Positions 320 to 30,539 of a stretch of DNA of 30,539 nt are shown in pieces; positions within the stretch are counted from its first letter, which is position 1, and each line of letters opens with the position of its first letter. The position numbers and the translations under genes are program-made. The stretch comes from a virus: positions 1 through 30,539 of IMG/VR virus record IMGVR_UViG_3300047300_000456; one strand, given 5' to 3'. The notes under the pieces were generated by a model. It saw only the letters and a program-made list of their open reading frames with translations, was not told the origin of the DNA and searched no databases.

Positions 320-751
320 TCACAAAGATAACACTTTGTCAAATATTACAAAAAACTCTTCAGGACTTCCGCAAAACTCATAAATCCCCCCAGCTTTCCG
401 CTCACGTTCCTGCTCCTTTAGCTGGTGTTCGGAAGGCTTGTCACGACCAATTTTCACCTCTATCATGGCACTTCTCCCTAATACTGTCATAGAAATATCA
501 GCCGTCCCTCGCCTTGTTGTGCCCTTGATCCACTTGTCCCCAATCTTGCGGCCTGTGGTACTTATCCTTGTGGCGCGGTATCCTGACCAATTGACGTAAT
601 TTATAATAAAGTTAGTTAGTCCGTTCGCCTTTGCCACTTGTGGCATCTTTGGAGGCGTATAATGGCCGTTTCTATAAGCATTGGGATATTCAGTCGCAAA
701 CCACTTCTCATGCGCTTGTTGGTATCTCTGCTTGCTTTCGTTGTATGTCAT
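320..751 (-). CDS. PD-(D/E)xK nuclease, VRR-NUC-like
   Basis: 143 aa. The core motif is readable: GTAD with Asp85, then IEVK with Glu98 and Lys100 after a short hydrophobic strand, and a following helix with Gln110. This is the D-(x)n-ExK metal site of the VRR-NUC/Holliday-resolvase-like endonuclease fold. In phages of this type such stand-alone nucleases sit with recombination genes and are thought to act on branched or replicating DNA; the true substrate is unknown. It is the last gene of the early operon, followed by the terminator at 226-255. The ATG at 751 overlaps the upstream HTH gene by 44 bases; the next in-frame Met (residue 36) would remove conserved-looking N-terminal sequence, so I keep the longer start. 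Confidence 0.75.
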   Translation of the reverse strand: MTYNESKQRYQQAHEKWFATEYPNAYRNGHYTPPKMPQVAKANGLTNFIINYVNWSGYRATRISTTGRKIGDKWIKGTTRRGTADISMTVLGRSAMIEVKIGRDKPSEHQLKEQERERKAGGIYEFCGSPEEFFVIFDKVLSL

Positions 752-947
752 TTCGGTAAAGTTTCCAATCTTGTAATATTATCCCAATTCGAGCCTCATG
801 CTTCCCCACCAACCGTCCTATCTGCTTATAGCTCCAATCGTTTTCCATCCATAGTAAGGTAATGAGGTGCTCAAGGCTTCCGTTGAAATGCTGGTCAATA
901 AATAGCCGAGCGCGGAGGTAGATGTGATGTTGAGCGGTGAGGGTCAT
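708..947 (-). CDS. Small helix-turn-helix protein
   Basis: 79 aa. The segment WSYKQIGRLVGKHEARIG (about residues 38-55) has the pattern of a helix-turn-helix: a short helix, a turn at LVGK and a recognition helix, as in sigma-70 region 4 or Trp-repressor-like folds. A small DNA-binding role is therefore likely, perhaps early gene control, but no target is evident. The ATG at 947 shares its A with the TAA that ends a degenerate upstream frame (TAATG), which suggests translational coupling. The 3' end overlaps the nuclease gene by 44 bases. Confidence 0.6.
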   Translation of the reverse strand: MTLTAQHHIYLRARLFIDQHFNGSLEHLITLLWMENDWSYKQIGRLVGKHEARIGIILQDWKLYRNDIQRKQAEIPTSA

Positions 948-1073
948 TACATAAATTTATCAAAAGGAAATATTTTTGCTTCATCATCAAAGTCGTGATT
1001 AAAATCTTAAATCAAGTCTTTGTCTTTTAGATGGAGTTGAAAGTCTATCAATAGTTCAAATTCTTTTTGTTTT
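947..1073 (-). pseudogene. Degenerate 3' coding remnant with in-frame stop
   Basis: A frame +1 relative to the upstream 79-aa gene reads KKQKEFELLIDFQLHLKDKD, then LI, a TAA at about 1006-1004, then DFNHDFDDEAKIFPFDKFM up to the TAA at 949-947. The acidic, aromatic-rich composition looks like a real protein end, not noise. No ATG opens it; the link to the upstream gene would be a shift in the run A8-C-A5 at about 1063-1077. I read it as a decayed or frameshifted end, with sequencing error in the homopolymer as an alternative. Confidence 0.3.
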
Positions 1074-26966: not shown

Positions 26967-28144
26967 GCTACTAATATTTTGAATTTAAACGCCCCTTGGC
27001 TTGTAAAGATAGCGTATCTCAGCGCATCTGTGATATGATCGTTTTCTTTCACCGGTTCGTCGAGTACCTTTCCATTCTTATCTGTTTTCCATTTATAGGT
27101 CTTAAGCTCATTCATCAGGTTGGAGCTTTGCCTTGTTACATACAATGGCATTGATTTAACCTTCCTTATCCCCTCAGTCACGTCCTTATGAGCTGGTTTA
27201 GCGTTGAATCCAGCTCTCATCAGCTCTTCTATCGTTTTAGGCTCCGCAGCGTCGCAATACAGCGTTTCTGTGCGTCCTATGCCTATTGATTTCAATCTTT
27301 CGATTAGGTCACCCGTTGTGAGCTTCGTTTGGTAGATTATTTCATCCGCATAGTTGGCACCTTCGTAGTGTTCAAGCTTCACCAATGCAGTCGGTACGTT
27401 ATAACCAAAGTCGAGCCCATAGCATACGGCGCCTTTGCCGGGCATTGCATCCGTCACCTTCCAATGGGTGTATATCTGTTCTTGTGATGTGCCTCTCAAT
27501 CCAAGGCCGAACACCTGCCACATTAATGGATCAGCTTCGCGGTAGGATTCGATTACTTCCAACTGTTTAGGCGGAATGTTGGTGATATTATTTCGGTAAG
27601 TGCTGTGAATCTTTATTGCATCGCTCCCATCGGCCACATGGTAACACCAAACATCGAAATCGGAAGGGTTAAGGTCAATAAATACCCGCTCAGTGGTTCT
27701 AATGTCGAGCTGGTCAAAAAGTGGCTTACTCACAAGGTTTGCCTCATTGATAAAAAGCAAATCACGTCCGGAGCCTTTAGCCTTGTCCGGGTCTTCAAGG
27801 CCAATGAATTCAATATAGCTGCCACTCTTGAAATGGTAAACGTTGTCCGTCTTGTTGTGGTCATCCAGGTTGTATATGCCCCAATCTCTGATAATTACGT
27901 CGAAATCCCTCATCGACCCACGTTTGAGATGTGGCAAAGAGTGGCTGCAAACAGAAATGCGCTTGTTAGGCGTAGTGTGTCCAAGTGTAATGAGCAGCTG
28001 CATGATGGAAAAAGACTTGCCTGAACGGCTGCCCCCTTCGTTAACGATGTAGCGCTTACTGGTACGCTTGTAGGCGTCCAAGTTAGCCTTGAAAACAGGC
28101 GTCACCTTAACGGTCTTGTTATGGTAGCGGTTCGCAACCGTCAT
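26963..28144 (-). CDS. terL: Terminase large subunit
   Basis: 393 aa. The ATPase half has Walker A GGSRSGKS (37-44) and Walker B LLFINEAN (129-136). The nuclease half has the acidic residues of the RNase H-like fold: Asp245 in GLDFGYN, Asp298 in YCDAAEP and Asp369/Asp373 in NDHITDALRYA. This is the pBSX/Terminase_3-like group. It packages DNA through the portal and cuts concatemers. It overlaps the small subunit gene by 26 bases and the portal gene by four. Strong assignment. Confidence 0.9.
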   Translation of the reverse strand: MTVANRYHNKTVKVTPVFKANLDAYKRTSKRYIVNEGGSRSGKSFSIMQLLITLGHTTPNKRISVCSHSLPHLKRGSMRDFDVIIRDWGIYNLDDHNKTDNVYHFKSGSYIEFIGLEDPDKAKGSGRDLLFINEANLVSKPLFDQLDIRTTERVFIDLNPSDFDVWCYHVADGSDAIKIHSTYRNNITNIPPKQLEVIESYREADPLMWQVFGLGLRGTSQEQIYTHWKVTDAMPGKGAVCYGLDFGYNVPTALVKLEHYEGANYADEIIYQTKLTTGDLIERLKSIGIGRTETLYCDAAEPKTIEELMRAGFNAKPAHKDVTEGIRKVKSMPLYVTRQSSNLMNELKTYKWKTDKNGKVLDEPVKENDHITDALRYAIFTSQGAFKFKILVA

Positions 28145-28496
28145 CGACTATTTGATTGATGTTAACACCTACTTGCCCGCTCATGTCCAGTTCGCTTCGT
28201 TCGATGTAGCCTCGTTTCTTGCCCTTGGTTTTTAGGTAAAAGATTGTTGCAGTTGTATCTTGATCTTTAATAAGACTGTGCAATTTGTCCTCTACGAAGT
28301 CCAAAACGTAATCAGGCACAGATTCAACTTCGCGCTTATATTCTTCATCCTCCTCCATCCATCTGTAATGAGAGCCGCGACCAATACCAGCAACCTCAGC
28401 AGCTTTTGAAACAATGCCAAGGTTTTTGTACAAGGCTTCCAGCATTGCTTTTTTAGCTGCTTTTGTCCTATTTTGTTCCTGTTCAAGCGCACTCAT
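28119..28496 (-). CDS. terS: Terminase small subunit
   Basis: 125 aa. N-terminal helix-turn-helix (LGIVSKAAEVAGIGRGSHYR at about residues 26-45), then a helical oligomer part (DYVLDFVEDKLHSLIKDQDT) and the typical tail AIFYLKTKGKKRGYIER-like (here TIFYLKTKGKKRGYIERSEL). This matches phBC6A51-type small terminases, which bind the pac or cos site and recruit the large subunit. It lies directly before terL and overlaps it. Start at ATG 28496. Confidence 0.8.
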   Translation of the reverse strand: MSALEQEQNRTKAAKKAMLEALYKNLGIVSKAAEVAGIGRGSHYRWMEEDEEYKREVESVPDYVLDFVEDKLHSLIKDQDTTATIFYLKTKGKKRGYIERSELDMSGQVGVNINQIVDDGCEPLP

Positions 28497-28533
28497 ACAA
28501 CAAAACTAATACAAATCCAAATAATTATCCAAA

Positions 28534-28683
28534 TTAATTTTCATTCACCTGCCCTTGCTGCACCTGTGATGCTGGAGGTGCTATCGGTTCTTGAACCATT
28601 GCCCGAATCTTCGCACCCAGTTCCATATCGTTCGGTGTTTCATGGATCAGGCTTACCGGGATGGTGATGCTGTGGAGTTTCAT
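28534..28683 (-). CDS. Hypothetical 49-aa protein before terminase
   Basis: Frame MKLHSITIPVSLIHETPNDM ... QQGQVNEN. A strand, then MELGAKIRAMVQEPIAPP. In-frame Met codons at 28710 and 28755 would give 58 or 73 aa, but the longest would run into the iteron repeats, so I prefer 28683. No function recognised. It may open the late operon, since it is the first gene after the iteron region. Confidence 0.5.
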   Translation of the reverse strand: MKLHSITIPVSLIHETPNDMELGAKIRAMVQEPIAPPASQVQQGQVNEN

Positions 28684-28734
28684 GAATAGGTGTTTTAGGA
28701 GTTTAAACATGGGGTAAAGGTACGTAAATTTCGA

Positions 28735-28774
28735 TTTACACCATTTACACCACATTTACACCAACTTTACACCA
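28735..28774 (+). repeat. Iteron cluster 1, four TTTACACCA
   Basis: Exact copies at 28735, 28744, 28755 and 28766 (start positions), spaced 9, 11 and 11 bases, all in plus orientation. They reach within 60 bases of the small gene at 28683, so they may also act as an operator. Confidence 0.85.
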
Positions 28775-28787
28775 CGACAAAAAAATT

Positions 28788-28812
28788 GAAACGTAGAACT
28801 GGCGTGCATTTC
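28788..28812. repeat. 25-nt imperfect dyad, copy A
   Basis: Opens GAAACGTAG and closes GTGCATTTC, an imperfect inverted repeat. It agrees with copy B at 18 of 25 positions. Lies between iteron clusters 1 and 2. Confidence 0.6.
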
Positions 28813-28820
28813 AGAGGAAA

Positions 28821-28847
28821 TTTACACCATTTACACCATTTACACCA
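28821..28847 (+). repeat. Iteron cluster 2, three tandem TTTACACCA
   Basis: Three exact 9-mers head to tail with no spacer (28821, 28830, 28839), directly next to the AT-rich core. Confidence 0.9.
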
Positions 28848-28920
28848 CTTTTTCTAAAAGATATATATAACACTATATAGTATATAAATAAATAAGTTAC
28901 TATTACTATTATATAAAAAA

Positions 28921-28938
28921 TGGTGTAAATGGTGTAAA
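28921..28938 (-). repeat. Iteron cluster 3, two inverted copies
   Basis: TGGTGTAAA at 28921 and 28930, tandem, inverted relative to clusters 1 and 2, on the other side of the AT-rich core. The core is thus flanked by oppositely oriented arrays. Confidence 0.85.
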
Positions 28939-28945
28939 AGTGCCT

Positions 28946-28970
28946 CAAACGTAGTGTGGGCGTGCGTTTG
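28946..28970. repeat. 25-nt dyad, copy B
   Basis: Opens CAAACGTAG and closes GTGCGTTTG, with a perfect 6-bp outer stem. The outermost pair is C-G here and G-C in copy A, a paired change. Lies between iteron clusters 3 and 4. Confidence 0.6.
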
Positions 28971-28972
28971 CT

Positions 28973-29014
28973 TTTACACCACGCATGGTGTAAATCGGTG
29001 TAAATGGTGGTAAA
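28973..29014. repeat. Iteron cluster 4, mixed orientation
   Basis: One plus copy at 28973, one inverted copy at 28986 and two degenerate inverted copies (CGGTGTAAA at 28996, TGGTGGTAAA at 29005) reaching the stop codon of the DUF3987 gene. Confidence 0.75.
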
Positions 29015-30539
29015 CTATTCGTTATTTTGAATCTTTTTGGCATAAGTGCCTCGTTTAACCTGATCGAATAATTTTGCAAAAGTTTCCTTTTTCATACATA
29101 TCTCAAACTTCCTGAGTGGCAATCCATGAAGTTTGCAAAGCTCTTTTGCCTGCTTATTGGTAAACTCATTTGGCAGTAAATCGTAGAAATCTTGGTCGTC
29201 CTTTGGTAGCCCTAAATTGATTTCACTGGTAATATTTCCAATTATGCGAATCGTATTTTCTGCATAATAGCGATAAAGTTTGTAAGCCTTGTTCACTATT
29301 TCCACCGTAATTTCAGGAGCAACCATGTTTTCAATAATGGCTAAAATTTGACAAAATCTTGGGAAATAAGCCGACATCTTAGCCTCAGTTCCCATTATGT
29401 ATTGCTCCGCTTTGGTCTTAATTCTATCGTTTGCGTCCCTTATTAGTTGCTTAAATAATGAAGTGTAAAGTACCTTGGCTTCGTTTGTGATGTCGATTTT
29501 CTTCTTATCTACTTTATCATTGTTAAATAAATGGCCAATTTTATAAAGCATAGAAACCAAATCCTTCCATTCATTGCACATTTCTTTCTTTTTTCCAAAT
29601 GGATCAACATCCTCATTTAAATAAATGTAGTCACTATCCACCATTAAGAAACGAGAGGCGAACCCGCTTTGAAGTTTGTCTTCGCTGAAAACGTTTTGTA
29701 GGCGCGTTGGCTGCGTTCCCATAAGCAAGTTAAGGTTAAGGTTAGGAACAACCCTTTCGCGCGTCTCATCGCTTCGTATTTGCGTGTGGCGGCCTCCGCT
29801 GAATGCTCTTGTAAAGAAACTTATCGAATCGTTGTTTTTCTTATATCCTCCAGCGTTCAAAATGGATTCCGCTTCATCCTGGTAAACTCCTATGCCATTC
29901 TTTTGGTGCATAGACTTTGCTATGTAACCTTCAGTTGTTCCGTCTACTGCAATGGGTATATATCTTGTAGGTCTCTTGTCGTTAAATACTTGTTTATTTA
30001 ATGCTGCCTCACGTTTCTTATGCTCCCATTCTTTGACTTCATCGTTGTAAGATTTATCATAATCTTCCTCTACTTCTTTTAGCACATTTTCACACATAAC
30101 TTTAAAGGCTGGTGTTTTTCCAACTGATACTGGAGCCACCATAAGCGCAAAAAGAATGTTTTTTGCATCTCCATTGAAATCAGAATAATAACGAGTGCCG
30201 GCCAAACTGCTAATAGTCCAAAGCCCTGCGGTTGCTACAAATTGAGGTGCCAGTGATCGCTCTTTACAAACATCAAGTATTGATTTCGCTATATTTTCAG
30301 GAAAAACATCCAAAGGGAATCCTGTTTGCTCTTCAGGTTCAGTTATTTCTTCCCCTTGCGCTGTTAATATCATTTTACAAATTTCAGCCACTGTATCCCA
30401 GTCGCGGTCATTCTTATAAAATAAAATAAACGAAGGAGGCAATGCCCAAACATCGTACTCTTCCTTGTTGTGCCATGATGGGAAATCAGGATAGGATCCT
30501 GAAAATAAAAGCAAACGTTTTGTTTTATAATAAACTTTG
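29015..30539 (-). CDS. DUF3987-type replication ATPase, 5' end outside window
   Basis: The frame stays open to the window edge (upstream codons read KVYYKTKRLL), so the TTG at 30514 is not a convincing start and the protein continues beyond 30539. Counting from that TTG, a P-loop-like segment MVAPVSVGKTPAF lies at about 125-137 and a Walker B-like VYQDEA at 210-215. The spacing and the segment FTRAFSGGRHTQIRSDETRE fit DUF3987 proteins of Bacteroidota phages and mobile elements, which often carry a primase-polymerase domain at the N-terminus. It likely acts in replication initiation, as helicase or initiator. The iteron region directly follows its stop codon. Confidence 0.7.
   Translation of the reverse strand, partial: KVYYKTKRLLLFSGSYPDFPSWHNKEEYDVWALPPSFILFYKNDRDWDTVAEICKMILTAQGEEITEPEEQTGFPLDVFPENIAKSILDVCKERSLAPQFVATAGLWTISSLAGTRYYSDFNGDAKNILFALMVAPVSVGKTPAFKVMCENVLKEVEEDYDKSYNDEVKEWEHKKREAALNKQVFNDKRPTRYIPIAVDGTTEGYIAKSMHQKNGIGVYQDEAESILNAGGYKKNNDSISFFTRAFSGGRHTQIRSDETRERVVPNLNLNLLMGTQPTRLQNVFSEDKLQSGFASRFLMVDSDYIYLNEDVDPFGKKKEMCNEWKDLVSMLYKIGHLFNNDKVDKKKIDITNEAKVLYTSLFKQLIRDANDRIKTKAEQYIMGTEAKMSAYFPRFCQILAIIENMVAPEITVEIVNKAYKLYRYYAENTIRIIGNITSEINLGLPKDDQDFYDLLPNEFTNKQAKELCKLHGLPLRKFEICMKKETFAKLFDQVKRGTYAKKIQNNE

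Follow-up and report, generated by a model that had tools for sequence, protein, structure and literature searches.

The repeat array at 28735–29013 of a 30,539-nucleotide viral DNA stretch (IMG/VR record IMGVR_UViG_3300047300_000456, hereafter the window) is most probably the replication origin of a phage, read by the primase–helicase encoded beside it. We put the probability of this reading at roughly 0.87, and both the binding and the replication that it implies are deduced from sequence comparison. A preliminary description had proposed either an origin or an operator, and the first is now strongly favoured because the array follows one initiator-like protein across 47–100% identity while the genes downstream of it vary.

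Within the window, the 9-mer TTTACACCA has 11 exact copies, all inside 28735–28994 and none elsewhere, and no unrelated 9-mer exceeded 3 copies in any 280 nt. Seven plus-strand copies lie left of an AT-rich core: four form an outer block with 9–11-bp spacing (28735–28774; starts at 28735, 28744, 28755, and 28766) and three a tandem inner block aimed into the core (28821–28847; starts at 28821, 28830, and 28839). On the right, two tandem minus-strand copies, also aimed into the core, make up the inner block (28921–28938; copies at 28921 and 28930), and the outer block beside the gene (28973–29013) holds a plus-strand copy at 28973, a minus-strand copy at 28986, and two degenerate minus-strand copies, TTTACACCG at 28996–29004 with one mismatch to TTTACACCA and TTTACCACC at 29005–29013. 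Our recount agrees with the preliminary description on the eleven exact copies, their orientations, and the two degenerate ones, and locates its three spacer-free tandem copies at 28821–28847. With up to one mismatch allowed, the whole window contained 32 matches to TTTACACCA, compared with 10.8 expected and a maximum of 23 in 100 shuffles. The window thus shows the clustered short repeats beside an AT-rich segment that characterize an iteron-type origin. The iteron differs from the DnaA box TTATCCACA; among the relatives, L065 has an array of the iteron ATATCCAC, which is similar to that box.

The core, presumably the unwinding element, measures 73 bp between the inner iteron blocks (28848–28920), not 66 as originally given, and with 88% AT it is, tied within one base, the 73-mer of highest AT content in the window. 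An AT core is also found in the relatives. A conserved element, here called E, was absent from the preliminary description; it flanks the core on both sides, with one copy in each outer-to-inner iteron gap: element 1 is at 28944–28971 (minus strand, GCAAACGCACGCCCACACTACGTTTGAG) and element 2 at 28786–28817 (plus strand, TTGAAACGTAGAACTGGCGTGCATTTCAGAGG). Both are kept in relatives, and one E element per gap is the layout of the family. Motif discovery gave AAACnCAnTnnGG in one clade (score 327 vs. at most 235 in shuffles) and GATaATCAATaaGT in the other (140 vs. a shuffle maximum of 95). Several clade-2 copies of the GATaATCAATaaGT type (L069, L078, and L087) match the IHF consensus WATCAANNNNTTR, whereas the clade-1 element, that of the window included, reads AAACnCAnT..GG instead. 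The element is constant across L073, L078, and L087 although their iterons differ. Our guess is that a host protein of the HU/IHF kind bends the DNA at E. The idea that the E elements are hairpins in general was rejected, as other copies lack such a fold; the right element of L048 reached a z score of −4.3 and the left element of the window −2.1.

The array does adjoin a DUF3987 gene, as first described, but the details of that gene had to be corrected: it lies on the minus strand with its stop at 29015, and the contig end truncates it, so that the 5′ part is absent and the TTG at 30514, listed as its start, is spurious. The remaining 3′ two thirds (29015–30538) encode the DUF3987 AAA+ helicase (Pfam PF13148, E = 2e-34; 119.7 bits vs. 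a gathering cutoff of 27) and a C-terminal winged helix, and PHROGs annotates the protein as helicase/primase. Complete relatives (L020/L044 and L042) have 749–752 amino acids, about 245 more at the N terminus than the window. We modelled L044 with AlphaFold2 (mean pLDDT 79, pTM 0.55); the N-terminal part of the model matched the primase–polymerase of pRN1 ORF904 (3m1m, E = 2.8e-5; 1rni), which points to an AEP-like rather than a Toprim fold. The DxD motif of AEP primases is found in the relatives as CLDFDLK, in the part that the window lacks. The AAA+ part matched SCCmec Cch (5dgk) and MCM helicases, the latter with a Foldseek E of 1.9e-5 and, over residues 322–689, VIA Z scores as high as 15.7; the C terminus showed the winged-helix topology H-E-H-H-E-E at residues 691–746 (block pLDDT about 80–89). 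Folded by itself, the winged helix of the window yielded a model of low confidence (pLDDT 64). A search for a PriCT domain between primase and helicase returned no Pfam match at E up to 1, and a PDB sequence search with profile A2 returned no hits. On the model, the protein would consist of a primase resembling the AEP type, a AAA+ helicase akin to MCM and Cch, and, at its C terminus, a winged helix, with activities predicted from the folds. The last ~62 residues (codons at 29018–29203, minus strand) are the presumed iteron reader, on account of the L044 homologue model and of covariation with the iteron; the RKFEI codons (29099–29113, minus strand), equivalent to columns 721, 724, and 725, mark the start of the presumed recognition helix. 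In L020, an HNH endonuclease gene (236–820; phrog_144) lies directly upstream of the primase–helicase gene, and a homing-type or origin-linked nuclease is conceivable.

Absence of repeat clusters beside DUF3987 genes in related phages had been named as evidence against the proposal; we searched for such clusters and found them. Of 38 IMG/VR stretches that contain the 18-mer TTTACACCATTTACACCA, 6 encode DUF3987 relatives, and exactly these 6 have arrays, with 8–13 copies straight after the stop codon. A profile search extended the set to 51 loci, 48 of them with enough downstream DNA, which span 47–100% protein identity and fall into 20 clusters at 90% protein identity, the window included. The array was located 0–1.3 kb 3′ of the primase–helicase gene in all 48, and extra genes may separate the two. 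For 40 loci the best 7-mer cluster exceeded all 10 block shuffles of the locus; for the remaining 8, 5 of which belong to one protein cluster, the densest 7-mer was not above the shuffles and the array was called by position and layout. The layout, predominant rather than universal among the related loci, consists of outer iterons (10–11-bp spacing), the E gap, an inner tandem pair (8–9 bp), the AT core, and the mirror image of these. On both sides, most copies face the core (rightward on the left, leftward on the right), with exceptions in L065, L068, L056, and L086; in L065 and L086 the iteron orientation is irregular. DNA methyltransferase-like genes adjoin the origin in several relatives, between gene and array in L062 and L075 and after the array in L053 and L090.

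The iteron itself is lineage specific, the forms seen being TTTACACC, TTACACA, TTTGCACT, TTTGCACC, AAAGTTC, GTACACA, TTTACACG, ATTCTCA, TTTGCA, TTTAGCA, TTTAGCAA, TAGTTAC, and AATCCAC. The iteron of P4 is GGTGAACAG, to which those of the window family bear a mere resemblance. Across 24 origins, partial Mantel tests related iteron distance to recognition-helix distance with body distance controlled for (r = 0.33, P = 2e-4); once the winged helix was controlled for, body distance showed no such correlation (r = 0.07, P = 0.22). The P values are approximate because origins share descent and relatives are treated as exchangeable. In a column-wise association with the iteron over 637 columns, columns 721, 724, and 725 ranked 1, 6, and 10; winged-helix columns were mildly enriched in the top 20 (P = 0.046), and unrelated body columns rank high too. 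A KFKN/RFKN helix is paired with AAAGTTC in two distant groups with 55.6% body identity. For pairs with a body identity of 85% or more, which are not independent of each other, mean winged-helix identity was 96.7% within the same iteron class and 80.0% between different classes. In these comparisons, it is the recognition helix of the winged helix, and not the rest of the protein, that tracks the iteron. The array thus appears to have what an iteron-type origin should have, a cognate initiator nearby and repeats that, statistically, covary with its DNA-binding domain. The earlier suggestion that the DUF3987 protein binds the array gains from this covariation, with the amendment that the likely reader is the winged helix and not the DUF3987 domain.

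Reader and origin also appear to have been swapped together between phages. L073 and L078 differ in iteron (TTTGCA and AAAGTTC, respectively) and share 96% identity in the body but 79% in the winged helix. Their DNA identity is 86–98% upstream of −180 from the stop, drops to 65–71% in the winged-helix codons and 28–64% in the array, and is back at 88–96% from +300 to about +600. The same coupled pattern was found between L080 and L087 (TTTGCA vs. ATTCTCA), so that two near-identical pairs each show joint differences in winged-helix codons and array, set in flanking DNA of about 90% identity. An explanation without exchange, namely that the winged-helix codons and the array are merely fast-evolving neighbours that look swapped, seems unlikely to us. 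The two are indeed adjacent and both fast evolving, and no high-identity homologous donor was found for L087, whose winged helix is 69% identical to that of L069. Against it, L073 and L080 have 100% identical winged helices and 82–100% identity over much of the array, on body DNA that at −600 to −300 is only 58–76% identical, and between near-identical genomes the iteron changes wholesale, in every copy. We lean, if only slightly, toward one contiguous exchangeable cassette of winged-helix codons and adjacent origin, its identity set largely by residues 721, 724, and 725 (L044 numbering), that has been swapped repeatedly, possibly in escape from origin-targeting competitors or replicon incompatibility.

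The position of the array directly upstream of the next gene would also suit an operator, at which the primase–helicase or another phage protein represses or activates the promoter of the downstream packaging operon. A TAnnTTTG box, the Bacteroidota-type −7 box, is present close to the end of the array in roughly 11 of 24 related origins, and some members have a T-run or terminator-like stretch between gene and array. The window array has no exact box; it is followed by TACCTTTA (28715–28722, minus strand), a possible promoter of the next operon one mismatch from TAnnTTTG, and a scan of 28400–29300 for sigma-70-type promoters and terminators found none. Moreover, a two-sided symmetric array round a 60–75-bp AT core would be unusual for an operator, and the gene downstream varies between a short ORF, terminase small subunit, DNA methyltransferase, and a ParB-like gene. 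We consider a purely regulatory array improbable. As the TAnnTTTG box often follows the array, a second, operator role such as autoregulation by the initiator is possible. A pac site or a centromere-like partition site, suggested by the terminase small subunit gene near the array in the window, is more improbable still: the array travels and covaries with the winged helix of the primase–helicase, and other genes adjoin it in several relatives.

The origin reading is well supported, and the kept layout, the lineage-specific iteron, the helix–iteron association, and the coupled winged-helix and array differences are seen directly in the sequences. They suggest a mechanism in which the C-terminal winged helix would bind the 9-bp iterons and two initiator groups would assemble on the two mirror-image iteron sets, with the E element in each gap aiding assembly, perhaps when bent by the HU/IHF-like protein. 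The MCM/Cch-like AAA+ domains would then open the 73-bp AT core and load as helicases in the outward direction, and the AEP-like domain would prime. We infer the DNA binding, the melting, the direction of replication, the priming, and the role of E from this arrangement. Cumulative GC skew over the whole window was uninformative, showing a one-way drift with the genes on one strand.

Judged by 29015–30539 and 1–751, the window represents a nearly complete phage genome whose opening point lies within the primase gene, and it contains terminase, portal, and tail genes. A short unassigned ORF sits between the array and the terminase small subunit gene (28119–28496, minus strand; phrog_4044, E = 7.5e-7), the first recognizable gene past the array. 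Because the gene order is a circular permutation of that of L042, the missing ~1.3 kb would probably hold an HNH gene and the primase domain. About 8 kb from its array, L042 encodes a stand-alone DnaA domain IV (621–959, minus strand; Bac_DnaA_C, E = 3.4e-14), a possible tie to host initiation or its control. The family members are metagenomic contigs only: no isolate or host genome was found, two scans of GTDB genomes and a scan with a single protein as query gave no relatives, and phage and plasmid records gave matches at 20–25% identity only. The hosts of this uncultured family are probably Bacteroidota.

The protein family was already known, and what we believe to be new are its origins, their symmetric layout, and the contiguous cassette. 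We found no earlier description pairing DUF3987 with iterons or origins in the literature covered, which leaves out most subscription papers. DUF3987, a widespread family of "unknown function", gains a working context from the MCM-like fold match and a cognate origin. About a dozen natural pairs of reader and iteron on one scaffold, several a few residues apart, make an initiator protein–DNA code testable. The cassette pattern suggests diversifying selection on phage origin identity, as argued for the PLE satellites of Vibrio cholerae, where the specificity part of the initiator RepA and the origin covary and have been swapped repeatedly, and where an anti-PLE nuclease may drive the module swapping (PMC8263062). 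The PLE module takes its specificity from a RepA_N domain at the N terminus and from three iterons of ~30 bp, whereas in the window family the codons of the reader are contiguous with the array.

Among other systems, the PrimQH and All3500 AEP families with DUF3987 share the order primase–helicase–winged helix, and for them the winged helix was predicted to recognize origins and DUF3987 to be a mobile-element helicase (PMC5862659); origins for DUF3987 proteins were not described there. In P4, the single protein alpha binds repeats via a winged helix and then unwinds and primes (PMC4234260), the scheme that we propose here, but the P4 primase is of the Toprim type and that of the window family is AEP-like by predicted fold. 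ORF904 of pRN1 has the domain order of AEP primase, AAA+ helicase, and C-terminal winged helix in common with our proteins, in addition to the primase fold match, and both origins lie 3′ of the gene; that of pRN1 is a stem–loop of ~100 nt without iterons (PMC4234260), in contrast to iterons round an AT core. The SaPI Rep proteins, with a DUF927 or Primase_Cterm helicase, recognize short iterons through the C-terminal domain in an origin directly downstream of rep (PMC7581432). They, and SCCmec Cch2 with its putative origin, resemble our system in having an initiator helicase and an origin just 3′ of its own gene, and covariation supports a C-terminal reading here as well. Homology to Rep and the gene content of an island are not shared, DUF3987 being found here in a genome that encodes terminase, portal, and tail proteins. 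Unlike in SaPI, the primase and the DUF3987 helicase are fused, the iterons are different, and the origin is a fixed mirror image with an E element.
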